NCBI GenBank assembly: GCA_030645235.1
Contig: JAUSMV010000012.1
Span: forward strand, 496,001 to 560,000
DNA from: Parvibaculum sp.
GTDB lineage: Bacteria > Pseudomonadota > Alphaproteobacteria > Parvibaculales > Parvibaculaceae
Direction of reading: 5' to 3'
Length of the DNA: 64,000 nucleotides
The position numbers and the translations under genes are program-made. The notes under the pieces are model-generated. The model had not been told where the DNA came from, searched no databases, and saw nothing but the letters and a program-made list of their open reading frames with translations. Of the stretch, positions 10,664 to 41,824 are shown piece by piece. How positions within the stretch are numbered: position 1 is the stretch's first letter; the number at the start of each line of letters is the position of its first letter.

Positions 10664-10686
10664 AATAATCGGGGGAGGGAGCGGAT

Positions 10687-11589: not shown

Positions 11590-11641
11590 GTGACCTTGCA
11601 TGCCTTTGAACATCGTCTTCAAGAAGAGAACAGGGAAAGAA

Positions 11642-16480: not shown

Positions 16481-17209
16481 GTGAACTCTGCCATCTATGT
16501 CGAGTCCTGGGCCGCTATGATTTTGCGTGGACCCGATGCGGAACCGCGTCGGTTGGGTCAATGTAAGGACGAAAGCGTGATCCCGGCGGGTCATCGCCGT
16601 CGCTTGGGTTCCTATGGCCGCATGGCTGTCACCTGCGGATTGAGTGTTGCCGGTGCTGACAGTTCCGATCTGGTTTTTTGTTCGCGCTATGGTGATGTTG
16701 ACCTCGCCTACGGACTTCTGAAATCGCTGGCGGTGGGTGAAATTTTGTCTCCGGCAGCGTTTTCTTTGTCTGTTCACAATTCTGTGCCCGGTGTCATGGA
16801 TCTCGTGCGTAAAAGTCGCGTCGGCCACACGGCGATTGCGGCAGGCGCACAGAGTCTGTCGGCAGGACTTGCGGAAGCTTGGGCAAAACTTGCGGCCAAG
16901 CCTGAACAGACCATCACGCTTGTTTTTGCCGAAGGAGAGTTGCCGCCTGACCTCAAGCCCTTTTCCGAGGTGCAGGGATATGGTCTCGCACTTGCTATGA
17001 CGCTTTCGGCGACGAATTCAAATCAGGCACTTGGCCAATTCAGCTTTGAGAGTATTGGCGATGGCAGAGCTGCATCGGCGGATATGACGTCAGAGGAGCT
17101 AGCCGGAAAGATTGCGTTCTTGCTGGATGCCTCTGAGCGCCGCATTGATCCGCTGCACTGGCGCTCACGCGGGCTTGAATGGTCATTTTCAGCCTGCACA
17201 GATGCGTAG
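16481..17209 (+). CDS. apeC: aryl polyene chain-length-factor-like ketosynthase subunit (ApeC)
   Basis: 242 residues from the GTG at 16481 (GGGGAAGGAA upstream). This is the short N-terminal-half ketoacyl-synthase-like family (Ketoacyl-synt_2) with FSLSVHNSVPGVMDL in place of the active-cysteine nucleophile elbow, so it cannot condense by itself. In characterised aryl polyene systems this subunit pairs with the ApeO ketosynthase as a KS/CLF heterodimer that sets chain length. It is first in a 17-gene operon whose order matches apeC-apeR, and it overlaps apeD by 8 bp. Identity follows from family plus gene order. Confidence 0.85.
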   Translation: MNSAIYVESWAAMILRGPDAEPRRLGQCKDESVIPAGHRRRLGSYGRMAVTCGLSVAGADSSDLVFCSRYGDVDLAYGLLKSLAVGEILSPAAFSLSVHNSVPGVMDLVRKSRVGHTAIAAGAQSLSAGLAEAWAKLAAKPEQTITLVFAEGELPPDLKPFSEVQGYGLALAMTLSATNSNQALGQFSFESIGDGRAASADMTSEELAGKIAFLLDASERRIDPLHWRSRGLEWSFSACTDA

Positions 17210-17996
17210 TCCCAAACAAGCATCAAGGCCTGAACAAGCTTGGCGTCTTGTCTGGACGGGGCTCGCCTTTGTGCTGTTCGGACTTGGCGGTCTTGCTCTG
17301 ACGCTGACGGCTTTTCCGCTCATTAATTTTCTTGTGCGTGATCCGGAGCGTCGCGCAGCGCTGGCGCAGGGGCTGGTGCATCGCGCCTTCCGTCTGCATG
17401 TGCGCTATATGACCTTGTTTGGTGTCATCAGCGTGACGATGATCGGAGCCGAAAAATTGGCGAGCGACAAAGGGGTGTTGTTTGTGTCGAACCACCCCTC
17501 GTTGCTCGATGTCGTCTTGCTCATGTCTGCGATGAAACGTGCACAATGCATCGTTAAGGCTGATATTTGGGATAATCCGTTTATGCGCGGACCCGTGACG
17601 GCGGCGGGTTATATCCGCAATGACGGTAATGCCGAGCAGCTCGTTGCTGATTGTAGCCGGGACCTCGCAGCAGGTAAGAATATCGTCATCTTCCCCGAAG
17701 GGTCACGGACTGTGCCCGGCGTGCCTATGAAATTTCAGCGGGGCGTCGCCAATATAGCCATTCGGTCAGGCGCCCCGATCCGCCTGATTACCATTGAGTG
17801 CGTGCCTCCTTCACTGATGAAGGGGCAGAAGTGGTACCAAATTCCACCTGTGAGGTCGCATTTTACGATTACGGTTCACGGGCTCATTGAAATGAACAGG
17901 TTTATGAGCGACCTTAGCCCATCTGTAGCAGCTCGCCACCTCAACGCGTATCTGGTCGAGCAATTTAAGGGGGCAATTGATGTTGAGCGGACTTGA
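17202..17996 (+). CDS. apeD: 1-acylglycerol-3-phosphate-type acyltransferase (ApeD)
   Basis: 264-residue membrane-associated PlsC-family acyltransferase. A hydrophobic segment near residues 15-35 (LAFVLFGLGGLALTLTAF) is followed by the acyltransferase motif SNHPSLLD (HX4D) and the phosphate-binding FPEGSRT. The ATG at 17202 overlaps the apeC stop; a longer reading from 17112 would lie inside apeC. In aryl polyene clusters this gene is thought to attach acyl groups to the lipid anchor. The next gene, an ACP, overlaps its end. Confidence 0.87.
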   Translation: MRSPKQASRPEQAWRLVWTGLAFVLFGLGGLALTLTAFPLINFLVRDPERRAALAQGLVHRAFRLHVRYMTLFGVISVTMIGAEKLASDKGVLFVSNHPSLLDVVLLMSAMKRAQCIVKADIWDNPFMRGPVTAAGYIRNDGNAEQLVADCSRDLAAGKNIVIFPEGSRTVPGVPMKFQRGVANIAIRSGAPIRLITIECVPPSLMKGQKWYQIPPVRSHFTITVHGLIEMNRFMSDLSPSVAARHLNAYLVEQFKGAIDVERT

Positions 17997-18258
17997 GGAC
18001 CGTATTCGGCATCTCATCGTTGAAACACTCAATCTTGAAGGTATCAAGGCGGAGGATATTGGACTGGATGAGGCGCTGTTCGGGGACGGGCTGGGGTTGG
18101 ATTCCATCGACGCATTGGAAATAGGCGTCGAAATTCAAAAAGCATTTGGCGTCAAAATCGATACGCAGGATGAAAAGCTGTCGAGCTATTTCTCCAGCGT
18201 CCGGGCGCTTGCGCAATTTGTATCGCAGGGGCGGACGGCTCAGGAGCAGGCGATATGA
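17980..18258 (+). CDS. apeE: acyl carrier protein 1 (ApeE)
   Basis: 92-residue acidic acyl carrier protein. The phosphopantetheine attachment site is Ser42 in GLGLDSIDALEI. The ATG at 17980 follows AAGGGGG at ideal distance; the TTG at 17977 is inferior. In studied clusters ApeE is the ACP loaded with the aryl starter by the ApeH ligase. It is one of two ACPs in tandem, differing clearly in sequence, which suggests separate jobs. Overlap with both neighbours implies translational coupling. Confidence 0.92.
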   Translation: MLSGLEDRIRHLIVETLNLEGIKAEDIGLDEALFGDGLGLDSIDALEIGVEIQKAFGVKIDTQDEKLSSYFSSVRALAQFVSQGRTAQEQAI

Positions 18259-18506
18259 CACGGGACGATATTGAAGCCAAGCTGCGTGAGTTTTTGATTG
18301 AGCTTTTTGAAGTCTCGCCCAATGACATTTCGGAAAGCGCGCTGCTGTCGGAAGATCTTGATCTCGATAGTATCGATGCCGTTGATCTCATTTTGAAGTT
18401 GCAGGAATTTACCGGGCGTAAAGTGTCGTCGGAGCAATTTCGCACCGTTCGCACAGTCGGCGATGTCATAGATCAGGTTCATGCGCTCCTCAGCCAAGCG
18501 GCCTGA
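18255..18506 (+). CDS. apeF: acyl carrier protein 2 (ApeF)
   Basis: 83-residue ACP with Ser39 in LDLDSIDAVDL as the phosphopantetheine site and typical four-helix acidic composition. It starts within the apeE stop (ATGA) and its own end overlaps apeG by 26 bp. Paired ACPs at this position are a hallmark of aryl polyene loci. Confidence 0.92.
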   Translation: MTRDDIEAKLREFLIELFEVSPNDISESALLSEDLDLDSIDAVDLILKLQEFTGRKVSSEQFRTVRTVGDVIDQVHALLSQAA

Positions 18507-19062
18507 TCCCGGAGCGGCGCTCCTGGCGATCACCACAATCTTGTTCCCTGTCCTTGCGGCTGTCGGCATCCATTGGCTGGGGCCGTGGCCCATTGTCGTT
18601 GCGCTGATTGTTGTGTTGTCGCTTCGCATTGTTTTTCCGGCGTCGTCTGCTGTGCCCGCCGCGATGACGGGCGCTTTGATTGCGGTCGTGGTGTGTGAGA
18701 TTGCCGTGAGTTTCTATGATCCGGAACTTGCGGCGCGGCTCTATCCGGTGTTCATGAATCTTATGATGCTCGTATCCTTTGCCGTGACGCTATGGAAGCC
18801 GCCGAGCATGATCGAGCGTTTCGCGCGCATCACCGACCCCGACCTTGACGCGCATGGCGTAGGTTATACGCGCAAAGTCACCTGGGTTTGGATCGGCTTT
18901 TTCATGTTGAACGGCTCGATGGCGCTGTGGACGGCGCTCTATGGGACATTGCTGCAATGGAGTGCTTATAATGGCGCTGTCTCCTATGGGCTGGCAGGTG
19001 TGCTGATGGCAGGTGAATATGCGATCCGCCGCATTGTGCGACACAAGAAGGCACAGATATGA
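18481..19062 (+). CDS. apeG: aryl polyene cluster membrane protein, COG4648 (ApeG)
   Basis: 193-residue integral membrane protein with about five to six hydrophobic segments (for example ITTILFPVLAAVGIHWL, IVVALIVVLSLRIVF, MTGALIAVVVCEIAV and TWVWIGFFMLNGSMAL). It belongs to the uncharacterised COG4648 group found between the ACPs and the acyl-adenylate ligase in aryl polyene clusters. The start overlaps apeF by 26 bp, and no other suitable start is seen. Its job is unknown; a scaffold at the inner membrane is plausible. An ATGA junction links it to the ligase. Confidence 0.82.
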   Translation: MRSSAKRPDPGAALLAITTILFPVLAAVGIHWLGPWPIVVALIVVLSLRIVFPASSAVPAAMTGALIAVVVCEIAVSFYDPELAARLYPVFMNLMMLVSFAVTLWKPPSMIERFARITDPDLDAHGVGYTRKVTWVWIGFFMLNGSMALWTALYGTLLQWSAYNGAVSYGLAGVLMAGEYAIRRIVRHKKAQI

Positions 19063-20735
19063 CGATGTCTGATTGGTCATTTCTTGATGCTTATGCGGCA
19101 AGTGATCCGATGGTGCGACGCGGGCAGAAAATCCTGTCGGCCAATGATGTGCGACTTGAAGCAGTCAGGCTGAAAGCACTTCTGGTGCATGGGGACGATC
19201 CGGTTTTTCTCTATTGCGAAGACAGCGGGAATTTTTTAGCGGGACTCATTGCGGCGCTGAGCGCAGGGCGCGATGTGCTTTTGCCGGGTCATGCGGCGCC
19301 GGGTTTTCTTGTCGAGATCGGTGCGACGGGCCCCTTGTTGTTGACGGATCAGACGGGGCTTGATGCCGGCGCCACGATCATTTCTGTTGAACCGCAGCAT
19401 GGTGTCGTTGCTCCTTCATTGGAAATTGATACAGGCGCGACGATCGGGTTTTTTACATCCGGCTCGACCGGTGCACCGAAGACTTGCATCAAATCACAGG
19501 CGCAAATTCTTTCAGAAGCGGCGGCGCAACTGGTCTTGTGGGGTGCGCCGTGCGGGCCGGTGATTGGTACCGTGTCGCATCAGCATATTTACGGTCTGCT
19601 GTTCCGTGTGTTCTGGCCCTTGATGGCCCGCGCATCTGTTGAAGCCATGCGACAGGATATGTGGGAAGACGTTATTTTTCACGCGCGGGAGGGCTGTGTT
19701 TTCGTGTCCAGTCCGGCGCATCTGTCACGTATTCCCGATGGGTTGTCACTTGTGCATCGCCCTGCGCATATTTTCTCATCCGGCGGGCCGCTTGCGTTCG
19801 CCGCATCGCGCGATGCTTTTATCAAATTCGGTCAGGTTCCGATTGAAGTTCTGGGCAGCACGGAAACGGGCGGCGTCGCGTGGCGGCAACAGCATGGCGA
19901 AGGTGAGCACTGGACACCGTTGCCGCAGGTTGAGATTTCATCGGATGAAAACGGTGCGCTCGCGGTGCGGTCTCCCTTCGCCGGTGGTGACGACTTTGTG
20001 GTGATGGGTGATCAGGTAACGCGTCATGAGGACGGTCGCTTTTCGCTTCACGCGCGGCTTGACCGGATCGTGAAGATCGAAGGCAAGCGCGTATCGCTGC
20101 CGCGTGTCGAGGAAGCCCTGAAAGGACTCGCCGCGATAACCGATGCAGTGGCTATCGATTTGCCGGAGCGTAACGGGGCGCTTGGAGCGGTTGTCGTTGT
20201 GGCGCCCGAGGCGACGGCTGAATTAAGTGCGCTTGGGGCCTTTCGCTTTTCGCGGGTTCTGCGGCGTCATCTCAGCGCCCGATTGGAGCCGATGGAATTG
20301 CCGCGCTTATGGCGCTTTGTTGAACGTGTGCCTGAAAACGCTCAAGGCAAACGACTTGCAGCCGACATGCGTGCTCTTTTTTCTGACAGTTCAAACGATG
20401 TGCCGAGAATTTTGGAGCGCAACATCAGCGAAATGGTGGCCGAGTTTTCTCTGGAGCTTAATCCGGATTTGCGCTGGTTCGCGGGGCATTTTCCGGAGCA
20501 ACCGATTTTGCCGGGTGTTGCGCAGCTTCATATTGCATCGGTGCTTGCTGAAGAGGTTTGGGGATTTGTGGCAACGGGCTCTGATATGGCGCGTGTCAAA
20601 TTCCGTCATGTCATGCAGCCGGGTGCAAAAGTCTTGCTGACGCTGACGCGGAACGGAGATGAGCGGCTTGATTTTCGTTATCTGATGAATGGCGAAGTGG
20701 CCGCCAGCGGCGCAATTAAAGGCATTGAGGCATGA
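19059..20735 (+). CDS. aryl acyl-AMP ligase fused to hotdog dehydratase (ApeH-ApeI)
   Basis: 558 residues, two domains. Residues 1-440 are an ANL-type adenylating enzyme with the phosphate loop TSGSTGAPK (133-141) and STETGG as A5-like motif, expected to activate an aromatic acid and load an ACP. Residues about 450-558 are a FabZ-like hotdog dehydratase with WFAGHFPEQPILPGV, in which His477 is the catalytic His. In the reference cluster these are two genes, apeH and apeI; here they form one continuous reading frame. It overlaps both neighbours by ATGA. The fusion would keep starter loading and beta-hydroxyacyl dehydration in one polypeptide. Confidence 0.87.
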   Translation: MTMSDWSFLDAYAASDPMVRRGQKILSANDVRLEAVRLKALLVHGDDPVFLYCEDSGNFLAGLIAALSAGRDVLLPGHAAPGFLVEIGATGPLLLTDQTGLDAGATIISVEPQHGVVAPSLEIDTGATIGFFTSGSTGAPKTCIKSQAQILSEAAAQLVLWGAPCGPVIGTVSHQHIYGLLFRVFWPLMARASVEAMRQDMWEDVIFHAREGCVFVSSPAHLSRIPDGLSLVHRPAHIFSSGGPLAFAASRDAFIKFGQVPIEVLGSTETGGVAWRQQHGEGEHWTPLPQVEISSDENGALAVRSPFAGGDDFVVMGDQVTRHEDGRFSLHARLDRIVKIEGKRVSLPRVEEALKGLAAITDAVAIDLPERNGALGAVVVVAPEATAELSALGAFRFSRVLRRHLSARLEPMELPRLWRFVERVPENAQGKRLAADMRALFSDSSNDVPRILERNISEMVAEFSLELNPDLRWFAGHFPEQPILPGVAQLHIASVLAEEVWGFVATGSDMARVKFRHVMQPGAKVLLTLTRNGDERLDFRYLMNGEVAASGAIKGIEA

Positions 20736-22450
20736 GCTTCCGTGTCTGTGCGCTTTTGCCAACCTACAAACACATCACCGTGTTGGAGCATCTGGTCGTT
20801 CGGCTGCGTGGCATGGGGCTTGACGTGATCGTGGTGGATGATGGCAACGGATCTGACATTGCCAATGAGATTGCCGCCATTTGTTCGCGTCATGAAGGCG
20901 TTTTTTTGCATCGGCGCGATGTCAACGGAGGCAAAGGTGCTGCTGTGCTGGATGGATTGCGTCTTGCAGCCTCGCGTGGGTTCACGCATGCGCTGCAAAT
21001 GGATGCCGATGGTCAGCACGACATCACATGCGTGCCCAGTCTCGTTGAGTGTGCGAAGGAAACGCCCGACGCCTTGGTGACGGGCGTGCCGGTGTTTGAT
21101 GATAGCATTCCGCGCGGGCGGCTCATCGGGCGGTGGATCACGCATATCTGGGTGTCGATCAATACGTTGTCTCCGCGCATTATTGATACGATGTGTGGCT
21201 TCCGGGTTTATCCCTTGGCACCAACGCTTGCGGTGGCCGACAGTGCGTTGCTTTCGCTGCGGATGGGGTTCGATACTGAAATTGTCGTGCGGTTGATTTG
21301 GCGCGGCGTGGAGGTGAAGACTGTGCCGGTGAAGGTCATTTATCCCGAAGGCAATCACTCAAACTTCGCGCTGAAGGAAAATGTCGGCATGTCAGTAATG
21401 CATGCCCGTCTTCTTCTCGGTATGTTACTGCGTGCGCCACGAATGATGTGGCATCGGATGCGCGGCGAGAAAAATACGGAAACCCATTGGGCGAGGCTTG
21501 GTGAGCGGGGCAGTGCTCTGGGTTTGCTGCTTTTGGCGCAGGTGTTTCGGTTTTTTGGGCGCTATGTCTGCCTTGCGGCTATGTCGCCTGTCATTGTTTT
21601 TTTCTTTCTAACGGGTCGCGTGCAGCGTCGCGCCTCAATGGATTATCTCAATCGTTTGTGGCTGTCCGGTGGTTTGCCCAAGCAGCCGGGCTATCTCATG
21701 TCGCTCCGGCATTTCTTTTCGTTCGGCACGTCAGCTCTTGATAAGCTTGCGGCCTGGACCGGCAATATCCCGCTTAGCGATATTGATGGAGCAAATCCCA
21801 GCATTTTTGATGTGGTGCGCGAGAGCGGACGCGGGGCGTTTATGCTTACCGCACATTTGGGCAATCCTGAAGTTATCCGCGCCGTCGGCAGCTTGCGAAA
21901 ACGCTCCCGCGTTAACGTGCTGGTGCACACCGCCAATGCTGTCAAATTCAACGCTATGATAGAGGCGAATGCACAGGGCTCTACCTTGCGCATGATTGAA
22001 GTGACGACTGTTGGTCCGGATACAGCCATTCTCCTGCAAGAAGCGATCGCGAATGGGGAAATTGTTGTAATTGTTGGCGATCGTATCCCTGTGACGGGAA
22101 ACGCGCGTATTTCCTGGGCGAAGTTTTTAGGTGCGCCAGCACCCTTTGCGCAAGGTCCGCATATTCTGGCATCGATCCTCAAATGTCCGGTCTATCTTCT
22201 CTTTTGCGTGCGCACGGGTGCACGTCATAAGATTTACTACGAACTTTTCTCAGACCGGTTGGAGTTGCCGCGCAAGGAACGCGAAGCGGCGCTGCAGGCA
22301 TCGGTGCAACGTTATGCCGAGCGCCTTGAGCATTATGTGCGGCTTGCGCCACTGCAATGGTTCAACTTCTATGACTACTGGCGGCCCAACGGCTTAGAGG
22401 CGCGGCGTATTGAGATTTCCGGTGATAGAGAAGGCAAGGCGGCGAGATGA
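20732..22450 (+). CDS. apeJ: glycosyltransferase-acyltransferase fusion (ApeJ)
   Basis: 572 residues. The N-terminal 240 form a GT2 glycosyltransferase with LLPTYKHI, VVDDGNGSD, NGGKGAAV and the metal/nucleotide motif MDADGQHD. After a hydrophobic stretch (near YVCLAAMSPVIVFFFLTG) the C-terminal half is an LpxL/HtrB-type lysophospholipid acyltransferase with TAHLGNPEV as the active-site His region and VGDRIPVTG. This fused layout is typical of ApeJ, thought to build the lipid-linked sugar anchor of the pigment in the inner membrane. It overlaps both neighbours. Confidence 0.87.
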   Translation: MSFRVCALLPTYKHITVLEHLVVRLRGMGLDVIVVDDGNGSDIANEIAAICSRHEGVFLHRRDVNGGKGAAVLDGLRLAASRGFTHALQMDADGQHDITCVPSLVECAKETPDALVTGVPVFDDSIPRGRLIGRWITHIWVSINTLSPRIIDTMCGFRVYPLAPTLAVADSALLSLRMGFDTEIVVRLIWRGVEVKTVPVKVIYPEGNHSNFALKENVGMSVMHARLLLGMLLRAPRMMWHRMRGEKNTETHWARLGERGSALGLLLLAQVFRFFGRYVCLAAMSPVIVFFFLTGRVQRRASMDYLNRLWLSGGLPKQPGYLMSLRHFFSFGTSALDKLAAWTGNIPLSDIDGANPSIFDVVRESGRGAFMLTAHLGNPEVIRAVGSLRKRSRVNVLVHTANAVKFNAMIEANAQGSTLRMIEVTTVGPDTAILLQEAIANGEIVVIVGDRIPVTGNARISWAKFLGAPAPFAQGPHILASILKCPVYLLFCVRTGARHKIYYELFSDRLELPRKEREAALQASVQRYAERLEHYVRLAPLQWFNFYDYWRPNGLEARRIEISGDREGKAAR

Positions 22451-24003
22451 TGACCCGATCTGATTATGTTTTTGGCGATGCGCCGCTGACACTCGAAAAT
22501 GTGTCGGAGATCAGTCTTGGCCGTCTCCATGTTGCGATTAATCGCAGTGCTGATTTTCGCAAGCGCATTCAGGCGTCTGCCGATCATGTCGATCAGACGT
22601 TGGCACGCGATGGTGTCATCTATGGCGTGACAACCGGCTATGGCGATAGTTGCACAACGGATGTTGCCGATGAACTCGTGAAAGCATTGCCTTTGCATCT
22701 GACACGGTTTCATGGTGTGGGGCTTGGACGCATTTTGTCGGCAGAGGAGACGCGTGCCGTCATGACCGTGCGGTTGGCCTCTCTCGCGCATGGCTGGTCC
22801 GGTGTCAGCATTGAGCTTGTGGACCTCCTCACGGATATGTTGAGGCTTGATATTTTGCCGATGATACCCGCTGAGGGATCGGTCGGCGCAAGCGGTGATC
22901 TGACGCCGTTGAGCTATATCGCGGGTGCACTTGTCGGCGAACGCAGGGTGCGGTTTTGCGGCGAGGAAATGTTGTCGGCTGAGGCCTTCACCAAAGCAGG
23001 GCTCACTCCTCTCACGCTGCGCCCCAAAGAGGCGCTTGCCATTATGAATGGCACGGCCGTGATGACGGGGCTTGGAGCCATTGCTTATGTGCGCAGCGCG
23101 CGGCTGTCGGCGCTCGTAACGCGACTTTCTGCGATTGCCTGTCTTGTGCTCAAAGGCAATCCCGCACATTTCGATCAGCGCCTCTTCAGTGCGAAGCCTC
23201 ACCCGGGGCAGGCGCGGGTGGCGGCCCGGATGAGTCTTGATCTTTCGGCCTTTGCTGCACGGCACGAACCATCGCGCTTGCAGGATCGCTATTCGATCAG
23301 ATGTTCTCCGCATGTGATCGGAGTGCTCGAAGACATGCTGCCAGCGTTCCGTACTATTCTGGAAACAGAAGTGAACAGTGCTAATGACAATCCGTTGATT
23401 GACCCGGAGAGCGGCGACATTTTGCATGGCGGGCATTTTTATGGTGGCCATGTCGCTTTTGTGATGGACGGCATCAAGACGCTTGTCGCCAATCTTGCAG
23501 ATCTGATGGACCGGCAGATGGCTCTCATTGTTGATACGAAGTTCAGCAATGGCTTGCCCGCCAATCTTTCCGGGGCGCAAGGTGTTCGCGCCTCAATTAA
23601 TCATGGGTTGAAGGCGCTGCAGATTGCGATGTCGGCATGGACGGCGGAAGCGTTGAAACTCACCATGCCTGCAAGCGTTTTTTCGCGATCAACCGAGTGC
23701 CACAATCAGGACAAGGTTTCGATGGGGACGATTGCGGCGCGCGATGCCTTGCGTGTGTTGGAACTCACTGAGCAAGTGGCGGCGGCCCATTGTATAGCGT
23801 GTTTGCAGGCTTTGCGCTTGCGTCAGCGCAGTGGCGAAATCGTCGGGGGTGATCTGACGGCGGATCTTGCCAAATTTGCAGATGATCTCGGCGCCCTCAT
23901 TCCCTTTGTCGATGAAGACGCGCCGCTTGATGAAGTGTTGCGTGCTCTTTGCGCCGACATGGCGGCCCAGAATTGGAGTGTGATCTGGGAGGGAGATTTG
24001 TGA
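22447..24003 (+). CDS. aromatic amino acid ammonia-lyase (HAL/TAL/PAL family) in the aryl polyene operon
   Basis: 518-residue MIO-dependent lyase. Ala148-Ser149-Gly150 in GSVGASGDLTPLSY form the MIO prosthetic group; Tyr59 in YGVTTGYGDS is the catalytic base, and NSANDNPLID and FSNGLPANLSG are further active-site motifs. It deaminates an aromatic amino acid to the aryl-acrylate (4-coumarate from tyrosine, or another). The selectivity pair that reads Ser-His in histidine lyases and His-Leu in tyrosine lyases reads Thr86-Arg87 here by hand alignment, so the substrate is open. Its place between apeJ and apeK suggests it makes the polyene starter. No hut genes are near, which argues against histidine catabolism. 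Confidence 0.85.
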   Translation: MMTRSDYVFGDAPLTLENVSEISLGRLHVAINRSADFRKRIQASADHVDQTLARDGVIYGVTTGYGDSCTTDVADELVKALPLHLTRFHGVGLGRILSAEETRAVMTVRLASLAHGWSGVSIELVDLLTDMLRLDILPMIPAEGSVGASGDLTPLSYIAGALVGERRVRFCGEEMLSAEAFTKAGLTPLTLRPKEALAIMNGTAVMTGLGAIAYVRSARLSALVTRLSAIACLVLKGNPAHFDQRLFSAKPHPGQARVAARMSLDLSAFAARHEPSRLQDRYSIRCSPHVIGVLEDMLPAFRTILETEVNSANDNPLIDPESGDILHGGHFYGGHVAFVMDGIKTLVANLADLMDRQMALIVDTKFSNGLPANLSGAQGVRASINHGLKALQIAMSAWTAEALKLTMPASVFSRSTECHNQDKVSMGTIAARDALRVLELTEQVAAAHCIACLQALRLRQRSGEIVGGDLTADLAKFADDLGALIPFVDEDAPLDEVLRALCADMAAQNWSVIWEGDL

Positions 24004-24419
24004 AATCGCTTGTTTCCTCCGCGGCCCCCTTGCGCATCCAATTTTATGATCTCGACCCCATGAATATTGTCTGGCATGGCAATTATGCCAGATTTTTCGA
24101 GATTGGCCGCAGCGCGTTGCTTGATAAAATCGGTTATAATTACCGCGCGATGGAGGCGTCCGGTTTTGCGTGGCCGGTGATCGACATGCATGTGCGCTAT
24201 TATCGTTCGTTGGAGCTCGGACAGGATCTGGAGATCGAGACGGGGATTACGGAGTGGGAAAATCGCCTGAAATTTTCCTATGTGATCAAAAGCAAGGTTA
24301 CCGGAAAGAGAATGACCACAGGTCATACGGTTCATGTCGCACTCGATATGCAAAGCAAGGAAATGAAATGGGAAACGCCACCGGTATTGCGCGAAAAGCT
24401 GGCGCCCTATTTGCCCTGA
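24000..24419 (+). CDS. apeK: hotdog acyl-thioesterase, 4-hydroxybenzoyl-CoA type (ApeK)
   Basis: 139 residues from the GTG at 24000, which overlaps the lyase stop and follows GGAGGGA. The YbgC/FcbB-type hotdog motif YDLDPMNIVWHGNYARFFE (residues 15-33) contains the catalytic Asp. It would release or proofread acyl-ACP/CoA in polyene synthesis. Orientation and order match apeK. The downstream LolA-like gene begins 52 bp before its end. Confidence 0.87.
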   Translation: MKSLVSSAAPLRIQFYDLDPMNIVWHGNYARFFEIGRSALLDKIGYNYRAMEASGFAWPVIDMHVRYYRSLELGQDLEIETGITEWENRLKFSYVIKSKVTGKRMTTGHTVHVALDMQSKEMKWETPPVLREKLAPYLP

Positions 24420-24949: not shown

Positions 24950-27198
24950 TGTCCCCGCGTCTTCTTATTGCCCTGACGCTTCTGACATTTTTGGTCTCCG
25001 CCGGATTTGTGGCGACGCGCATCTCGCATGGCGTCGATACCAACATTCTTTCGCTTTTGCCGGGTGATGCAAAAGACCCTGTTACGGCGGCTGCGATGGA
25101 GAAGGCAAGCGCCGTTGCGTCCAACCGCGTTGCTTTTGCCATTGAAGGTGGCACGTCAACGACACGCAGCGTGGCGGCGGCAAAGCTCGAAGCGGCGCTC
25201 ATCGCGTCAGGTCAGTATCGTTCATCAAGCGAAGATGCCAAAGATCTGTGGAAATGGCTTTTTGCTCATCGCGCCGAATTTATCTGTGCCGGTGATCGCA
25301 TCAAGCTCGAAGCAGGCGAGGGCGCTGCCGTGGCGCAGCAAGCGTTGCTCGAATGGTATGCGCCCATGTCGTCAGCGCGTGGCGAGATGATTAAAACTGA
25401 TCCGCTGCTGCGCACCAATCGTTTGCTCGGATGTCTCCTGCCCAAAAGTCTTACCTCAATGCCGGAAGGCGAGGCGCAGATCGTGTCGGGCAGTATTGTG
25501 AGCCCCGTCTATAGTCTTGATGTGCAGGACAGTATTGCCGCGGTGATTGCGGTCTGGCATGCGGAAGCTGATGCACAGGGTCTGACGCTTAGCCGGGCTG
25601 GCGCCGTTTTTCACGCTGCCTATGGAGCCGAACACGCCAGGCGCGAAATATCGCTGATCAGCGGGATTACCACGGTGGCGGTGCTTCTCTTTTACTGGAT
25701 GATGTTTCGTTCGCTGCGTGCGCCTTTGATTGCGGTCGGCATGGTGATCTATTCTTTGACGGTCGGATTGGCTGCGTCGCTTGCCGTCTTTGGCAGCGTG
25801 CATGCGATGGCGCTCGTGTTTGGCGCAGCGCTCATCGGCATGGTGGTGGATTACACGACCTACTATCTGGTGACAGGTCTCGCGCATCCTGACCATTCGC
25901 CACAGATGCGTAAGGCGCAGATTTTCAGGCCACTCACTCTTGGTATGCTCACTTCGGTTGCAGCTTTTGCGGCCCTTTTCTTTTTTCCCGTCGATGCCTT
26001 CCGGCAGATCGCCCTTTTCGGTGGTGTGGGCCTTATGGCGGCATGGATGGGTACGCTTGTTTTGACGCCCGTTGCGGAGGGCCACCCGATGCGCGTGGGG
26101 CCGGGGGCTTTGTTCACTAAGAAATATGCCGGTCAATTTTTGGGCGGAACCTATTCGGGCAAGGTTTTGGCTTTCGTGATTTTGGCTGCGTTGTTGATCG
26201 TCGGTGCGGCCTTGCTGCGCGGCGAAACGCTTGATGATGTGCGCCGCTTTCAGGCGCCATCGCCGGTGCTTGTCAAGGAAGAAGTGCATTTGCGGGCGCT
26301 GATCGGCTTTATGCCATCCAATACATTCGTCCTGGTTCGTGGTGCCACGCGAGATGAGGCGACGATGCGTGAAGAAGCATTTTTGAAAAAACTCAACGCG
26401 CAAAGTGAGGGCGACGCCGTTGTTCTCGCTTCAAGCCGCTTTGACCCGTCGGAGACTTTACGCGCGCGCGATAGGGATTTGATCCGCACAATGCTGATTG
26501 AACCCCATCTGCCGCGTGTGCTGGAAACTCTGGGTGAGAGAAATGCCAAGGTCTATGACGAAGCCCCGCAGGATAAAGTGCCGCCGCTTTTCGTATCCGG
26601 ATTGCGCGGTGAGACGGACAATGTCTTTTGGTCCATCGTCCCGGTGAGCGACGGCGCGCTCAAAATGCCGGAGATGGAGGGCATCAGTTTGGTCAATCCG
26701 GCACAGCGTTATTCCGCGTTGCTTGGCAAGTACAGGTATCTCTCCACATATGGTCTTGCCGGTGCAGTGATTGCGACCGGCATTATGCTGCTCTTTATTT
26801 ATCGCAGCGCAGCGAGCCTGAAGATCCTGATGCCGACCATTCTCGCACTTATAGTGACGCCTGCTCTTTTGGCATTGCTTGGTGTGCCTTATTCGTTCTT
26901 TTCGACCATGGGTCTCTTCCTGGTCGTGGGGGCGGGGGTCGATTATGCGATTTTCCAGTGGGAAAATCCGGGTCAAGAAGGTGACTGGACCCGTGTGGGG
27001 ATCGTGCTGGCCGCCGCTATGACCTGCATTTCCGTGGGACTTTTGGGACTTAGCTCTGTTTTGCCGGTGAGAAGCTTCGGGCTCACCGTGGCGATTGGAA
27101 TTCTGATTTCTCTGCTATTCTCTCCGCTCTTGAGGAGTTCTTTGGCAAAGGCTGGTTTTGGGGGCAAAGCCGGATTTGGGGGCAAGTATGACGACTGA
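24946..27198 (+). CDS. apeM: MMPL/RND-type exporter (ApeM)
   Basis: 750-residue inner-membrane transporter with RND symmetry: one N-terminal helix (LLIALTLLTFLVSAGFVA), a periplasmic domain, a five-helix bundle with GMVVDYTTYYLVTG, a second periplasmic domain, and a second bundle with VVGAGVDYAIFQWE. The paired Asp residues in these helices are the likely proton-relay sites. It belongs to the COG4258 exporter group of aryl polyene clusters and would move the lipid-linked polyene from the membrane to the LolA-like carrier. The C-terminus carries a short tandem KAGFGG repeat. It overlaps the flavoprotein gene by 11 bp. Confidence 0.88.
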   Translation: MMSPRLLIALTLLTFLVSAGFVATRISHGVDTNILSLLPGDAKDPVTAAAMEKASAVASNRVAFAIEGGTSTTRSVAAAKLEAALIASGQYRSSSEDAKDLWKWLFAHRAEFICAGDRIKLEAGEGAAVAQQALLEWYAPMSSARGEMIKTDPLLRTNRLLGCLLPKSLTSMPEGEAQIVSGSIVSPVYSLDVQDSIAAVIAVWHAEADAQGLTLSRAGAVFHAAYGAEHARREISLISGITTVAVLLFYWMMFRSLRAPLIAVGMVIYSLTVGLAASLAVFGSVHAMALVFGAALIGMVVDYTTYYLVTGLAHPDHSPQMRKAQIFRPLTLGMLTSVAAFAALFFFPVDAFRQIALFGGVGLMAAWMGTLVLTPVAEGHPMRVGPGALFTKKYAGQFLGGTYSGKVLAFVILAALLIVGAALLRGETLDDVRRFQAPSPVLVKEEVHLRALIGFMPSNTFVLVRGATRDEATMREEAFLKKLNAQSEGDAVVLASSRFDPSETLRARDRDLIRTMLIEPHLPRVLETLGERNAKVYDEAPQDKVPPLFVSGLRGETDNVFWSIVPVSDGALKMPEMEGISLVNPAQRYSALLGKYRYLSTYGLAGAVIATGIMLLFIYRSAASLKILMPTILALIVTPALLALLGVPYSFFSTMGLFLVVGAGVDYAIFQWENPGQEGDWTRVGIVLAAAMTCISVGLLGLSSVLPVRSFGLTVAIGILISLLFSPLLRSSLAKAGFGGKAGFGGKYDD

Positions 27199-28408
27199 CG
27201 TTGTAATCATCGGTGCAGGACCGGCGGGTTCTGTTGCGGCAGCCATGCTGGTAGATGCGGGCCTGTCGGTTGAAGTTCTGGAGCGCACACATTTTCCGCG
27301 GTTTTCCATTGGCGAAAGCCTATTGCCACAAGCGATGGAATGGCTTGAAGAGGCTGGCCTGTTGCGCGATGTGGTGGAGGCAGGCTTTCAGCATAAGAAT
27401 GGCGCGACGTTCCGCTGGGGTGAGCGCGAAGAAAATTTTGATTTCCGCGACAAGACCAGTGGCGGCTGGGGCACGACCTATCAGGTTCAGCGCGAGAAGC
27501 TTGATCTGATTTTGGCGAAAGGTGCCGAGCGCAAAGGTGCGCGGGTGCAATTCGGACAGACGGTTGTGGCCATGCGTCCGCATCCGACACGCCCCGGCCT
27601 GACGGTGCGCGACGAGGCAGGCGCGGAGCGTGATATTGAGGCGCGTTTTGTGCTCGATGCCAGCGGCTTTGGTCGTGTGTTGGCACGTATGCTTGATCTG
27701 GAAGCGCCGACATCGGTGCCGTTGCGCATGTCGGTCTTTACCCATGTCAAAGATAATATTCCGCACGGGCTGCATGATCGTAACAAGATTATTGTTACGA
27801 TCAATGTGAAGAATCCTGAGATTTGGTATTGGTTTATTCCGTTGGCGGATGGTCTGACCTCCGTTGGCGTTGTCGGGCGACCCGAACATTTGACGCCTTA
27901 TGGTGAGACGCGCGAGGAGCAGCTTTTTAATCTCATTGCTGAGTCCGGCAAGATGGGAGAACTTCTCGTCAATGCCGTGCGTGTGCGCGATGTGGGTGAG
28001 ATTTCGGGATATGCCTGCAAGGTGAGCAGCCTGAGCGGTAACGGCTATGCGCTTCTTGGCAATGCGGGCGAGTTTCTTGATCCGGTATTCTCGTCGGGCG
28101 TGACGATTGCGCTCAAATCCGCGTCTCTGGCGTCGAAACTTGTGGTCAGGCAACTGAACGGCGATATGCCCGATTGGCAGCGTGAATTTGCCGAACCGCT
28201 CGGACGTGGCATTGAAACATTCCGGGCCTATGTAAACGGTTGGTACGACGGCAGTTTGCAACGTGTGATTTTCGGAACGCCGGCGGATCCCAACAAGGTC
28301 AAGCGGATGATCACCTCGGTTCTGGCCGGTTATGCATGGGACGAAGAAAATCCGTTTGTGCAACAGCCGTCAAAATATCTCAACATGCTGGCTGAGCTCA
28401 CCAAATGA
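27188..28408 (+). CDS. FAD-dependent halogenase-like oxidoreductase
   Basis: 406 residues from the ATG at 27188. FAD motif GAGPAG is at residues 9-14, followed by RFSIGESLLP. Halogenase signatures are present: Lys70 in QHKNGATFRWG at the place of the catalytic lysine, WYWFIP (residues 213-218) matching WxWxIP, and FLDPVFSSGV. Related plain reductases and hydroxylases of this superfamily generally lack WxWxIP. The location between apeM and apeN implies tailoring of the aryl head or polyene, most simply chlorination or bromination as in xanthomonadins. No partner flavin reductase is in the cluster. Hydroxylation or ring reduction remains possible. Confidence 0.8.
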   Translation: MTTDVVIIGAGPAGSVAAAMLVDAGLSVEVLERTHFPRFSIGESLLPQAMEWLEEAGLLRDVVEAGFQHKNGATFRWGEREENFDFRDKTSGGWGTTYQVQREKLDLILAKGAERKGARVQFGQTVVAMRPHPTRPGLTVRDEAGAERDIEARFVLDASGFGRVLARMLDLEAPTSVPLRMSVFTHVKDNIPHGLHDRNKIIVTINVKNPEIWYWFIPLADGLTSVGVVGRPEHLTPYGETREEQLFNLIAESGKMGELLVNAVRVRDVGEISGYACKVSSLSGNGYALLGNAGEFLDPVFSSGVTIALKSASLASKLVVRQLNGDMPDWQREFAEPLGRGIETFRAYVNGWYDGSLQRVIFGTPADPNKVKRMITSVLAGYAWDEENPFVQQPSKYLNMLAELTK

Positions 28409-28977
28409 GAGCTGTTGCGGTTGCCTGTTTGTTGATGATTGTCGGTGGATGCGTTTCAAGGATAAACGGAACCACTGATCTTCAGCCTCTGGCACCTGAC
28501 GTCACTCTTGCTTTGCCGGACGCACCGGTATTTGGCAGTGGCGTAGAGGCGGTACAACTTGTTCAGGCGCGCTATCAGGGGCATCAGCAAATGTTCCAGT
28601 CGGTGATCCGGTCGCGCGACAATTTCTTTACGGTTCTGATGACGGTGCCGTCCGGCCCGCGCATCATGCGGATCGACTGGACGCCGGTTTCGATTTCGTC
28701 AAAGAAAGAAGCGATTGCGCCGACCGGTCTCTCGCCGGAGCGGATGCTTGCGGATCTTATGCTGGTCTATGCGCCTAAGGACATGTTGCGCAAAGCGATT
28801 GGCGGCGCTGTGGTGGTTGAAGACAAGCCCACAGAGCGCAAAGTAATGAAAGACGGGCGGGTGCTTGTTCTTGTGACGCGGCCTGATGGGGATGTCTGGA
28901 ACGGGCGGGCAACGCTGACGAATTATGCCTTCGATTATGAACTGAAAATCCAGAGCCAGAGAGTGACGGATGAGTAG
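28405..28977 (+). CDS. apeN: DUF3261 outer-membrane lipoprotein (ApeN)
   Basis: 190-residue lipoprotein: the signal sequence ends with the lipobox IVGGC, so Cys16 would be lipidated. The mature protein is beta-rich (NFFTVLMTVPSGPRIMRIDW, KVMKDGRVLVLVTRPDGDVW), matching the DUF3261 family that accompanies aryl polyene loci and is thought to insert the product in the outer membrane in LolB-like manner. It overlaps the flavoprotein gene by ATGA and apeO by 8 bp. Confidence 0.85.
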   Translation: MRAVAVACLLMIVGGCVSRINGTTDLQPLAPDVTLALPDAPVFGSGVEAVQLVQARYQGHQQMFQSVIRSRDNFFTVLMTVPSGPRIMRIDWTPVSISSKKEAIAPTGLSPERMLADLMLVYAPKDMLRKAIGGAVVVEDKPTERKVMKDGRVLVLVTRPDGDVWNGRATLTNYAFDYELKIQSQRVTDE

Positions 28978-30154
28978 ATTCTCCGACAGTCCCGTCTTTT
29001 TGTCGGCCATGAGCGCTGCCAATGCACTTGGCGCGGGATGGGACGAGGTTGCGACCAATCTCTTTGCGGGCGACCGGCGGGGGCTTGGCTCGGCCGTCGT
29101 GATCGCGGATGGTCGAACCGTGCCTGTCGGTGCGCTGTCATTTGAGCTTGCGGCCCTGCCGGTTGCGCTTTCGCAATGGGAGAGCCGCAACAACAGGCTG
29201 ATCCTGCATTGTTTGCAGCCGCTAATGAGTGCGATTGAATCCGCGAAAGAGAAATTCGGAGCAAATCGCGTTGGCGCTGTGATCGGTACCAGCACGTCGG
29301 GCATTAGTTGCAGTGAAGCGGCGGTGGCGCAGTTTGCCACGCAAAAACAATGGCCGGACGGGTTTACGCTGTCGCGCCAGGAACTCGGTGATCCGGCGGC
29401 CTTTGTGGCTGAGATCACAGGCATTGCGGGCCCCTACTATGGCATATCGACAGCCTGCACATCCGGCGCGAAAGCGCTTGCGAGTGCGGCGCGTCTGTTG
29501 CGGGCAGGCATGTGCGACGCTGTGATTGCGGGCGGGGTGGATACGCTCTGCAATCTGACGCTTAACGGATTTTCGGTGCTGGACTCGATTGCACCGACGC
29601 GTTGCAACCCGTTCAGCACCAACCGCAACGGCATCAGCATCGGCGAAGGCGGTGCATTGTTTCTGGTGACGCGGGATGAAGCGCCGATCAGGCTTGCGGG
29701 CTATGGCGAAAGTGCGGACGCTCATCATCTGAGTGCGCCGGACCCTGAAGGGACGGGCGCGAAGGCAGCGATTGCGGAAGCCCTCGATCTCGCGCGGATT
29801 TCGGCGCGTGATATTTCCTATCTCAATCTCCACGGCACAGCGACGCGCCTCAATGATGCGATGGAGTCTGCGGTTACGCATAGTGTCTTTGGTGACGATT
29901 TATTGTGCAGTTCCACCAAGGGCATGACCGGTCACATGCTGGGAGCGGCGGGATCAAACGAGGCTGCCTTTGTGGCCATGGCTTTGCAGCGTGGTGAAGC
30001 GCCGCCGCATATCTGGGATGGTGAGCGTGATGTCGCTTTATCGCCCCTCAATTTTGCCGACCGGCTTGGTGAGAGGGTGGAAGGACGCTATATGATGAGT
30101 TGTTCCTATGCCTTCGGAGGCAACAACACAGCATTGATTTTGGCGCGTTCGTAA
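28970..30154 (+). CDS. apeO: beta-ketoacyl-ACP synthase (ApeO)
   Basis: 394-residue ketosynthase with complete triad: Cys163 (GISTACTSGAKAL), His288 (NLHGTATRLND) and His322 (KGMTGHMLGAAG). It is expected to partner the cysteine-less ApeC as the chain-elongating KS/CLF heterodimer, condensing malonyl units on the aryl starter. The start codon lies within the end of apeN, and its TAA overlaps the ATG of apeP (TAATG). Confidence 0.9.
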   Translation: MSRFSDSPVFLSAMSAANALGAGWDEVATNLFAGDRRGLGSAVVIADGRTVPVGALSFELAALPVALSQWESRNNRLILHCLQPLMSAIESAKEKFGANRVGAVIGTSTSGISCSEAAVAQFATQKQWPDGFTLSRQELGDPAAFVAEITGIAGPYYGISTACTSGAKALASAARLLRAGMCDAVIAGGVDTLCNLTLNGFSVLDSIAPTRCNPFSTNRNGISIGEGGALFLVTRDEAPIRLAGYGESADAHHLSAPDPEGTGAKAAIAEALDLARISARDISYLNLHGTATRLNDAMESAVTHSVFGDDLLCSSTKGMTGHMLGAAGSNEAAFVAMALQRGEAPPHIWDGERDVALSPLNFADRLGERVEGRYMMSCSYAFGGNNTALILARS

Positions 30155-30612
30155 TGTCTGAAATTCACCTGCCCATTGAGAGCCTTGTGCGCCACCGGGG
30201 GACGATGTTGCTCATCGACCGTCTGGTTGAAGCAAGCGATGTACATGTTATTGGTGAGGTTACTATTTCGGAGACGTCCACTTTTTTCCGGCAAGGGCGC
30301 GGTGTGCCTGCCTATGTCGGGCTCGAATATATGGCGCAAACGGTCTCGGGTTTTGACGGGGCAAAGCGCGTCGTGACAGGCGAGCCGCCCGCAATCGGCT
30401 TTTTGCTCGGCACGCGCCGCTACACGTCAAATGTGCGATATTTTTTGGCCAATACGCTGTTGTCGGTTCGGGCTGATATGATCTTTAGCGAAAATGGCAT
30501 GGCTGCTTTTGATTGCGTCATCAGCGCCTATGGCGAAGAGCTCGTGACGGCCTCGCTCAATGTTTACAGACCGGAAAGCGGGCAAATGGAAATACCAGAG
30601 GGCATGGCGTGA
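30154..30612 (+). CDS. apeP: 3-hydroxyacyl-ACP dehydratase (ApeP)
   Basis: 152-residue hotdog-fold dehydratase. IESLVRHRGTMLLIDRLVEAS at the N-terminus, GVPAYVGLEYMAQTVSGFDG and GFLLGTRRYTS fit the ApeP/FabA-FabZ-like family. With the dehydratase domain of the ligase fusion this is the second DH of the cluster, as in characterised systems where ApeI and ApeP both occur. The start at 30154 overlaps the apeO stop. Confidence 0.87.
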   Translation: MSEIHLPIESLVRHRGTMLLIDRLVEASDVHVIGEVTISETSTFFRQGRGVPAYVGLEYMAQTVSGFDGAKRVVTGEPPAIGFLLGTRRYTSNVRYFLANTLLSVRADMIFSENGMAAFDCVISAYGEELVTASLNVYRPESGQMEIPEGMA

Positions 30613-31349
30613 CAAAGCCTCAGTTGAAAAAATCTGTTCTCGTCACCGGTGCAAGCAAAGGCATCGGTAAAGCAATTGCTTTGCGCGTGGCGCGGGCGGG
30701 CTTTCCCGTCACGGTTCATTACGGGCAAGATCGCGGCGGCGCGGCGGCGACACTTAGCGAGATTGAAGCGCGAGGCGGCGAAGGCCGCATCATCGGTTTT
30801 GATGTGGCTGATCGCGCGGCGACGAAAGCGGCAATTGAGGCTGACCTTGCGGAGCATGGTGCTTATTGGGGCGTGGTGCTGAATGCAGGCATCGCGCGCG
30901 ACAATGCTTTTCCCGCCTTGGAAGGGGACGATTGGGATCAGGTGCTGACCACCAATCTCGATGGATTTTTCAATGTGATTCATCCCCTCACCATGCCGAT
31001 GATCCGGCGGCGCGATGGTGGTCGCATTGTGACGATATCGTCGGTGTCAGGGATTATCGGCAATCGCGGACAGGTGAATTACAGCGCGGCGAAAGCGGGC
31101 ATTATCGGTGCGACAAAGGCGCTGGCGGTTGAGCTTGCGACGCGCAACATCACGGTGAACTGCGTTGCGCCCGGCGTCATCGAAACGGCGATGATCGAGA
31201 AGGCACCGGTTGAAGAAATTTTGAAAATGATCCCGATGCAGCGTCTCGGCAAAGTTGAAGACGTGAGCGGCATCGTCGCTTTCTTGCTGTCGGATGAGGC
31301 AAGTTACATGACGCGACAGGTTATATCCGTCAATGGAGGGATATGCTGA
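30609..31349 (+). CDS. apeQ: 3-ketoacyl-ACP reductase (ApeQ)
   Basis: 246-residue FabG-type SDR. Motifs: VTGASKGIGKA (residues 12-22), LNAGIARDN, catalytic Ser145 (TISSVSGIIGN), Tyr158 and Lys162 (YSAAK), and the C-terminal VISVNGGI. It reduces the 3-keto group in each elongation cycle with NADPH. The GTG at 30609 overlaps the apeP stop and is preceded by AGAGGG; a longer frame would run inside apeP. Confidence 0.9.
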   Translation: MTKPQLKKSVLVTGASKGIGKAIALRVARAGFPVTVHYGQDRGGAAATLSEIEARGGEGRIIGFDVADRAATKAAIEADLAEHGAYWGVVLNAGIARDNAFPALEGDDWDQVLTTNLDGFFNVIHPLTMPMIRRRDGGRIVTISSVSGIIGNRGQVNYSAAKAGIIGATKALAVELATRNITVNCVAPGVIETAMIEKAPVEEILKMIPMQRLGKVEDVSGIVAFLLSDEASYMTRQVISVNGGIC

Positions 31350-32578
31350 TGCGTCGCGTGGTTGTCACCGGTATGTCTGGCATGACGCCACTTGGCGGCA
31401 ATTGGCCGGATATCCGTGCGGCCATGCAGGATGGGCGTAGCGGTGTCAGGTATATTGACGACTGGGATCATCTCACCGATCTCAACACACGCCTTGCCGC
31501 TCCCGTTGACTATTTCGAGCATGAAAAAATTTTTCCGCGCAAGCAGATGCGCTCAATGGGACGTTGCGCGGCTTTTGCCGTGAAGACAGCGGAAAATGCA
31601 CTGGCCCATGCAGGGCTGCTCAACGATCCGTTGCTTAAATCGGGGCGTGCCGGGTGTGCCTTCGGCTCGTCCTACGGATCGACCGAACCGACCAAAGGCT
31701 TTGTGAGCTTTATGGATACGGGCGTAGCGACTGGTCTCAGCGCTATGAGCTACATCAAAATGATGAGCCATACGGCTGTTGTAAACGTTGGCATATTCTT
31801 TGGATTACGCGGGCGCGTCATTACGACGTCGTCGGCCTGCACGTCCGGCTCGCAGGCTATCGGCTATTCTTATGAAGCGATCAAGCACGGCCATGCCGAA
31901 GTGATGATCGCAGGTGGGACAGAAGAGCTTTGTCCCACTATGGCGATTGTGTTCGACACGCTGTTTGCCACGAGCTGCAAAAACGATACGCCGCAAAAGA
32001 CACCGCAACCCTATGATCAGCATCGCGACGGACTTGTCATCGGCGAGGGCGGGGCAACGCTCATTCTGGAAGAGCGCGAGCACGCCTTGGCACGCGGCGC
32101 GATGATCTATGCAGAGCTTGTCGGCTTTGGTACGAATATGGACGGCTCGCACGTCACCGATCCGCAATCAGAAACAATGGGCGGTGCATTGAAGCTTGCG
32201 CTTGCCGATGCGATGTTGGCGCCATCCGCCATTGATTTTGTCAGCGGCCATGGGACAGCGACGGTGCAGGGCGATATTGCTGAGACGCTCGCGACGTCTG
32301 ATGTGCTGGGTGCCGATACGCCGATTCACTCGCTTAAAGGTTATTTCGGGCACACGCTTGGCGCTTGCGGAGCGATTGAGGCCTGGCTCGTGATTGAGAT
32401 GATGCGCGACAAAAGTTTTGCACCGAACCTTAATCTCAATCAGGTGGATGAGCGTTGCGGCAAGCTTGATTATATTACGGGTTCATTCCGCGATATCGAT
32501 GCCACGCATGTCATGACAAATAATTTTGCTTTCGGCGGCGTCAATACGTCTTTGATATTCAAACGCGCCGAGGCGTGA
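31343..32578 (+). CDS. apeR: beta-ketoacyl-ACP synthase (ApeR)
   Basis: 411-residue FabF-like ketosynthase with Cys166 (SSACTSGSQAIG), His303 (SGHGTATVQGD) and His337 (KGYFGHTLGAC). In known clusters ApeR acts as a homodimer in initiating condensation on the aryl starter. Two starts are possible (ATG 31343 or 31349) behind GGAGGG. It closes the overlapping gene string; the next gene begins 13 bp later. Confidence 0.9.
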   Translation: MLMRRVVVTGMSGMTPLGGNWPDIRAAMQDGRSGVRYIDDWDHLTDLNTRLAAPVDYFEHEKIFPRKQMRSMGRCAAFAVKTAENALAHAGLLNDPLLKSGRAGCAFGSSYGSTEPTKGFVSFMDTGVATGLSAMSYIKMMSHTAVVNVGIFFGLRGRVITTSSACTSGSQAIGYSYEAIKHGHAEVMIAGGTEELCPTMAIVFDTLFATSCKNDTPQKTPQPYDQHRDGLVIGEGGATLILEEREHALARGAMIYAELVGFGTNMDGSHVTDPQSETMGGALKLALADAMLAPSAIDFVSGHGTATVQGDIAETLATSDVLGADTPIHSLKGYFGHTLGACGAIEAWLVIEMMRDKSFAPNLNLNQVDERCGKLDYITGSFRDIDATHVMTNNFAFGGVNTSLIFKRAEA

Positions 32579-38768: not shown

Positions 38769-38784
38769 ATAAAGATATGTTTAT
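38769..38784. promoter_or_regulatory. candidate operator of the ArsR-methyltransferase regulator
   Basis: ATAAAGATATGTTTAT is a palindrome of the form ATAAAnATATnTTTAT, broken only at the two n positions. It lies 25 bp before the start of the ArsR-type gene heading the methionine operon, in an AT-rich promoter-like stretch. ArsR-family repressors commonly bind such sites and autoregulate. Binding is inferred. Confidence 0.5.
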
Positions 38785-38809
38785 ATTTCCCGCCTTAGGA
38801 GTGGCGAAT

Positions 38810-40725: not shown

Positions 40726-40736
40726 GGACCAAAAAG

Positions 40737-41798: not shown

Positions 41799-41824
41799 TC
41801 CGGACTGACAAAGAGTAAATTGAG

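Follow-up and report, generated by a model that had tools for sequence, protein, structure and literature searches.

We examined a 64,000-nucleotide stretch of DNA (contig JAUSMV010000012.1, positions 496,001 to 560,000; hereafter the window) from the 3.83 Mb genome of a Parvibaculum species. The region 16481-32578 on the forward strand contains 17 genes in the order C, D, E, F, G, HI (fused), J, lyase, K, L, M, flavoprotein, N, O, P, Q, and R, where the letters denote ape genes for aryl polyene (APE) biosynthesis (Table 1). The APE family was reportedly named in a 2014 survey of biosynthetic clusters. The original prediction had described a complete ape set in this order on one strand, with an ammonia-lyase gene between J and K, a halogenase-like gene between M and N, and an overlap at each junction; all of these points were borne out, in comparison with Escherichia coli.

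Profile searches against Pfam and NCBIfam gave a clear family for 15 of the 17 proteins. No family match was obtained for G in either search, and M had no Pfam match and only weak transporter matches in NCBIfam, below cut-off. These two were therefore assigned by similarity to the E. coli proteins (42% and 28%, respectively, tblastn) and by position. The Parvibaculum queries gave no tblastn match to E. coli N and P at E 1e-3; the Parvibaculum N and P were assigned by Pfam. The genes overlap at 16/16 junctions by 1-52 bases with the starts chosen (from C to R: 8, 17, 4, 26, 4, 4, 4, 4, 52, 4, 11, 4, 8, 1, 4, and 1 or 7 bases). The longest overlap, with apeK, follows from the apeL ATG at 24368, behind which the N-terminus resembles a signal peptide by eye. 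The operon end at 32578 was confirmed, and C starts at 16481 (GTG behind a purine-rich site) or 16430. The operon encodes a ketosynthase (O) with a half-ketosynthase partner (C), a second ketosynthase (R), ApeI- and ApeP-type dehydratases, a FabG2 reductase, two acyl carrier proteins (ACPs), and an acyl-ACP ligase (PF22818, PF22817, TIGR01831, PF00550 twice, and PF00501). Transport (M, L, and N) and acyltransfer (D and J) genes accompany them in conserved order, M being recognized by similarity and position only. These families, and the gene order shared with E. coli, agree with the predicted identity of a complete APE cluster. The operon is very probably a regular APE biosynthesis and transport operon with a lyase-plus-flavoprotein layout, the commonest in the Pseudomonadota sample examined.

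Table 1. Genes of the Parvibaculum ape operon (positions in the window; percentages are similarity to the E. coli protein)
Gene	Product	Position	Strand	Evidence
apeC	Chain-length-factor-like half ketosynthase	16481..17209 (start maybe 16430)	+	PF13723 (ketoacyl-synt_2) E 2.4e-39; 32% to E. coli ApeC
apeD	Lysophospholipid acyltransferase	17202..17996	+	PF01553; 47% to E. coli
apeE	Acyl carrier protein, DSI serine	17980..18258	+	PF00550; NF006617 above cut-off
apeF	Acyl carrier protein, DSI serine	18255..18506	+	PF00550; NF003757 above cut-off
apeG	Membrane protein	18481..19062	+	42% to E. coli ApeG (tblastn), no family
apeHI	Acyl-ACP ligase + ApeI-type dehydratase fusion	19059..20735	+	PF00501 (AMP-binding), PF22818
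apeJ	GT2 glycosyltransferase + LpxL-like (lipid A) acyltransferase	20732..22450	+	PF00535, PF03279
lyase	4-Methylideneimidazole-5-one (MIO)-type aromatic amino acid ammonia-lyase (ASG 148-150, F88-H89, Q421)	22447..24003	+	PF00221 E 6.5e-154
apeK	Thioesterase (4HBT), GTG start	24000..24419	+	PF13279; TIGR00051 above cut-off
apeL	LolA-like chaperone	24368..24949	+	PF19574; NF053544 flexirubin LolA2 40.1 bits, below cut-off
apeM	RND/MMPL-type exporter	24946..27198	+	Weak TIGR03480 hopanoid RND transporter; 28% to E. coli ApeM
flavoprotein	Halogenase-like flavoprotein (GxGxxG, K70, WxWxIP, FxxPxxSxG)	27188..28408	+	PF04820 (Trp_halogenase) / PF01494 (FAD_binding_3)
apeN	DUF3261 LolB-like lipoprotein	28405..28977	+	PF11659 E 5.5e-26
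apeO	Ketosynthase	28970..30154	+	NF006618 464.7 bits, cut-off 407
apeP	Dehydratase	30154..30612	+	PF22817 ApeP-like E 1.3e-17
apeQ	Ketoreductase FabG2, GTG start	30609..31349	+	TIGR01831 387.5 bits, above cut-off
apeR	Ketosynthase	31349..32578 (start 31343 or 31349)	+	NF006587 645.4 bits, cut-off 470

The lyase and the halogenase had been regarded as additions to the cluster. A sample of 398 Pseudomonadota genomes, chosen without regard to either gene, was searched with the ApeP-like profile PF22817, which matched 68 genomes including Parvibaculum's own and none of 14 control genomes. Regions of up to 20 kb around each of the 67 other matches were then scored for the lyase (>200 bits) and the flavoprotein (>150 bits). 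Both genes were present in 35 regions, the flavoprotein only in 10, the lyase only in 5, and neither in 17; that is, the lyase occurred in 40, the flavoprotein in 45, and at least one of them in 50. Eleven of the 17 regions with neither gene constitute all members of family f187 (L147-L157), which has the E. coli order, and the 17 also include L199, which is truncated at its lyase side by the end of the contig, and the rearranged L207. Because both genes occur in 35/67 regions sampled independently of either, the label "added" is wrong: the lyase and the flavoprotein are usual parts of ape clusters in the sampled genomes, and the E. coli layout is among the 17/67 without both. The gene identities in the original prediction were thus correct, but the E. 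coli cluster had been treated as the standard.

The position of the two genes was examined in the best 80 of 579 loci ranked by lyase similarity (L037-L116), in which the lyase is present by construction. Of the 80, 77 have the lyase between J and K and one has it between HI and K; the remaining two have no other ape match. M and R are both present in 73 loci, the other seven being short or without ape matches. Among these 73, 61 carry the flavoprotein between M and N or O, 2 (Vibrio and Enterovibrio) carry it upstream of C, and 10 gave no match for it. The flavoprotein was found in 11/26 other genomes of the genus at E 1e-40, several of them incomplete, and in 7/289 genomes class-wide at E 1e-60, Parvibaculum's own included. 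The ape cluster is patchy between genomes, yet its layout is common among its holders.

Variant arrangements were also observed. In L158-L162 and L164 (family f191), as in the Vibrio and Enterovibrio loci (L109 and L114), the flavoprotein gene is divergent and lies upstream of apeC; in the f191 loci it adjoins an ApeB-like methyltransferase gene. L208, L210, and L212 hold APE-like clusters with a flavoprotein and no match for D, F, K, R, or the lyase, and phosphonate-transport genes adjoin those of L208 and L212. These two lyase-less clusters could not be linked to xanthomonadin through a XanB2-type gene, as no match to such a family was obtained among the 10 open reading frames scanned (seven of L212 and three of L208).

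The original prediction had also pointed to the absence of the methyltransferase genes that precede apeC in E. coli. A search of the Parvibaculum genome with E. coli ApeB gave no homologue, an empty result that shows little in a search of this kind without a control. With the same query, an ApeB-like methyltransferase was detected by tblastn in 13/65 other ape regions of at most 20 kb holding at least 8/12 core genes, with E. coli ApeB as the sole query, so that other methyltransferases could escape. The missing ApeB-like methyltransferase agrees with the prediction but is not distinctive, since 52/65 regions likewise gave no match.

Pairwise distances of the lyase and flavoprotein were compared with those of the ketosynthases. 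Spearman coefficients were 0.55 for lyase and R (112 loci), 0.57 for lyase and O (113 loci), 0.65 for flavoprotein and R (105 loci), 0.53 for flavoprotein and O (108 loci), and 0.70 for lyase and flavoprotein (99 loci), with 0/200 permutations as high in all five cases; the coefficient for the ketosynthase pair O and R was 0.37 (135 loci). These values, which are inflated by genome relatedness and by a few loci entered twice (e.g., L043 = L213), fit shared inheritance of the lyase, flavoprotein, and ketosynthases.

We next consider the substrate of the lyase, which is the sole PF00221 match in the Parvibaculum genome and carries the MIO triad ASG at positions 148-150. The best NCBIfam models were the BagA/FevW tyrosine lyase (389.7 bits), histidine lyases (385.5 and 373.4 bits), and FlxA (321.6 bits); these models do not decide the substrate, because the scores are close and all below cut-off. 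At motif 2, the residue is Gln (Q421) in the Parvibaculum lyase and in 129/129 APE-lyase loci, some of which represent one genome twice. By contrast, it is Glu in 18/18 further aromatic lyases, which came from 20 sampled genomes; in that set six matches lacked a locus, of which two fall within ape regions included above and two are fragments. According to a supplement legend of PMC3992019, Gln at motif 2 marks tyrosine and phenylalanine ammonia-lyases (TAL/PAL), whereas Glu marks histidine ammonia-lyases (HAL). The lyase residues thus speak against histidine as the substrate. The motif 1 selectivity pair (the Watts switch position) is F88-H89 in an alignment to other aromatic lyases, nearly all of which are gap-free there. 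An earlier placement at the TAL-like H84-L85, based on a gapped alignment to plant PAL and on conservation, was wrong in light of this alignment. The predicted structure (mean predicted local distance difference test score [pLDDT] 79.3, predicted template modeling score 0.85) does not inform on the active site, as residues 59-74, 77-83, 88-91, and 144-151 have pLDDT values below 50. FlxA, the lyase of flexirubin polyenes, has a HAL-like motif 1 and a TAL-like motif 2, yet is a tyrosine lyase with a 1010-fold preference over phenylalanine (PMC3992019). By analogy with FlxA, tyrosine would be a reasonably likely substrate, ahead of phenylalanine. No paper joining aryl polyenes or xanthomonadin with an ammonia lyase was found among open-licence papers, and the excerpts of PMC9966250 and PMC13385065 contain neither "ammonia" nor "halogenase"; this is not taken to mean that a lyase in APE clusters has gone unreported.

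The closest solved chain to the flavoprotein is 3nix (E 1.5e-106), named only "Flavoprotein/dehydrogenase," with ChlB4 and chains named halogenase next. K70, W213-x-W215-x-I217-P218, and F296-x-x-P299-x-x-S302-x-G304 are invariant in 11/11 aligned homologues. The same three motifs are present in 64/64 named loci matching at >200 bits, of which one match omits the N-terminal glycines. With GxGxxG, the flavoprotein carries every halogenase motif checked (GxGxxG, WxWxIP, the catalytic Lys, and FxxPxxSxG), which we take to be those of flavin-dependent halogenases. Stenotrophomonas maltophilia IAM 12423 (L060), presumably identical to the type strain of Xanthomonas maltophilia, has the Parvibaculum layout, one ApeP, and one flavoprotein at E 1e-20, other halogenase families not having been searched. 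Jenkins and Starr 1985, a reference cited by PMC3949708, reports in its title that the type strain of X. maltophilia yields halogenated aryl polyenes, and an excerpt of PMC3691225 describes a Lysobacter cluster without a halogenase gene and a non-brominated pigment. The best 80 of 579 loci include none from Xanthomonas, so that the Xanthomonas halogenase itself could not be linked to this flavoprotein family. Taken together, the motifs, solved-chain neighbors, S. maltophilia title, and Lysobacter pigment make halogenation the likelier role, with slightly better than an even chance.

From these observations we propose the following route. The MIO lyase would deaminate an aromatic amino acid, with tyrosine giving p-coumarate as the favored case, and ApeHI, judging from its family, would load p-coumarate onto ApeE/ApeF. 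ApeO, with ApeC as chain-length partner, ApeQ, ApeI, and ApeP would then build the polyene by malonyl extension, steps shown or proposed for E. coli and Xenorhabdus homologues (PMC8253772). The flavoprotein may halogenate the aryl ring, to which we give the same slight preference as above, or otherwise oxidize it. As in homologous systems, ApeD/ApeJ would join the chain to a lipid, and ApeM/ApeL/ApeN would deliver the lipid-linked chain to the outer membrane. The expected product would be a polyene ester of the 4-hydroxyphenyl type that lacks ApeB methylation and may carry bromine or chlorine. That an amino acid supplies the aryl starter, as predicted, is plausible, and the residues argue against histidine, although which amino acid is used is not proven; the starter is probably amino-acid-derived and p-coumaroyl.

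Several observations weigh against this route. The His of TALs is missing at the first place of the selectivity pair, where the Phe of F88-H89 occurs in PALs according to the PMC3992019 legend; motif 1 nevertheless does not decide the substrate, because FlxA proved to be a tyrosine lyase despite a HAL-like pair. ApeH matches a 4-coumarate-CoA ligase model (TIGR02372) at 108 bits, below the cut-off of 334.7. This model was rejected as a marker of a coumarate starter, since it is also matched by E. coli ApeH (75 bits) and by ApeH of the lyase-less L035 (114.5 bits). That ApeH family matches do not separate clusters with and without lyase would suit a starter of chorismate-derived 4-hydroxybenzoate as in E. 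coli, the lyase being a side enzyme or acting on another amino acid. Xenorhabdus ApeH loads 4-hydroxybenzoic acid, the starter also predicted for the E. coli pathway (PMC8253772), and 27/67 ape regions have no lyase. However, lyase distances co-vary with those of the cluster and the genome has no second PF00221 protein. The UbiC family PF04345 was not found in the Parvibaculum genome, a weak negative because only 1/14 controls (E. coli) matched, nor was PF01947, which matched 3/14 controls; PF21168 (XanB2-like) matched nothing, the controls included, and shows nothing. We consider a 4-hydroxybenzoate starter unlikely here, while still a possibility to be reckoned with. Further, 17/67 ape regions do without both genes, so that an APE in itself requires neither. 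An excerpt of PMC3368416 describes the type species, P. lavamentivorans, as non-pigmented, so a pigment in this Parvibaculum species is not a given.

As for the flavoprotein, it also resembles the QhpG monooxygenase and the LodB/GoxB maturases and might be a ring hydroxylase or another monooxygenase acting on the polyene head; the suggestion that the product may be halogenated is plausible, but related non-halogenating flavoproteins match too. A monooxygenase would also fit the bare name of 3nix and the occurrence of the gene in 45/67 ape regions, whereas the excerpts of the cited papers name halogenation only for xanthomonadin-type pigments. Against it stand the halogenase motifs in all 64 named homologues, the rank of ChlB4 and chains named halogenase after 3nix, the single such gene in S. 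maltophilia with its titled halogenated aryl polyenes, and the non-brominated pigment of Lysobacter; we regard a monooxygenase as a substantial possibility that falls somewhat short of an even chance. A flexirubin- or xanthomonadin-type cluster proper, instead of the common APE type, is highly improbable. The FlxA, FlxB, and LolA2 models do match, but all below cut-off (321.6/700, 268.8/340, and 40.1/125 bits), the order and content correspond to the ape cluster gene by gene, and the operon has two ACPs, while xanthomonadin clusters are described in an excerpt of PMC8253772 as being without the second.

Other genes in the window were noted beside the operon. A major facilitator superfamily (MFS) efflux-type transporter gene lies at 32592-33983 (+), 13 bases past apeR; the nearest relative, L025, has it behind R as well (76%), L027 and L036 gave no match beside R, and it is perhaps a lineage-specific neighbor. 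Aromatic meta-cleavage genes occupy 7716-12472 (+), encoding an HpaB-type hydroxylase, an aldehyde dehydrogenase, an extradiol dioxygenase of glyoxalase fold, and a fumarylacetoacetate hydrolase. At 38777-44512 (+), an ArsR-type regulator/methyltransferase fusion is followed by methylenetetrahydrofolate reductase, homocysteine S-methyltransferase, and a B12-dependent MetH part, which looks like a split methionine synthase operon.

Among known systems, flexirubin clusters resemble the proposed route in that an MIO lyase feeds the polyene (FlxA of Chitinophaga pinensis). However, flexirubins carry a dialkylresorcinol (PMC3992019), and the Parvibaculum proteins score below the Flx model cut-offs. 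The xanthomonadin (Xanthomonas) and arcuflavin (Azoarcus) clusters include a halogenase gene (PMC3691225 and PMC3949708), comparable to the halogenase-like gene of Parvibaculum, but their starter is hydroxybenzoate from a XanB2-type enzyme (PMC3949708) in place of a lyase product, and the Xanthomonas cluster, per the excerpt of PMC8253772, differs from Parvibaculum in its lack of a second ACP. The E. coli CFT073 cluster (apeA-R, c1186-c1204; gene table of PMC8253772) has an identical C-to-R order and shares the two ACPs, two dehydratases, and ApeM/L/N transport. It differs in having ApeA, the ApeB methyltransferase, and separate H and I, and in having neither lyase nor flavoprotein. The L037-L116 loci, from Stenotrophomonas, Pseudoxanthomonas, Shewanella, Thalassospira, Parvibaculum, and others, share the order of the operon, including the place of the lyase in 77/80 and that of the flavoprotein in 61/73, their lyases being 54-73% and their flavoproteins 47-76% identical; in many of these, N or L gave no tblastn match, and HI is one piece in some and two in others. 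The Parvibaculum operon alone thus adds one more member to a known cluster type. The chances are evenly balanced that two starter routes split APE clusters, the larger group (40/67, and Parvibaculum) using a lyase and p-coumarate, and the lyase-less form of E. coli and Xenorhabdus, with 4-hydroxybenzoate, being derived or separate. If so, the p-coumarate starter would bring one double bond ready-made, and the organisms from which the pathway model comes would represent the derived or separate form. With about half of the 67 regions holding both genes and 50 holding at least one, these results suggest that the reference E. coli APE cluster is not the typical one.

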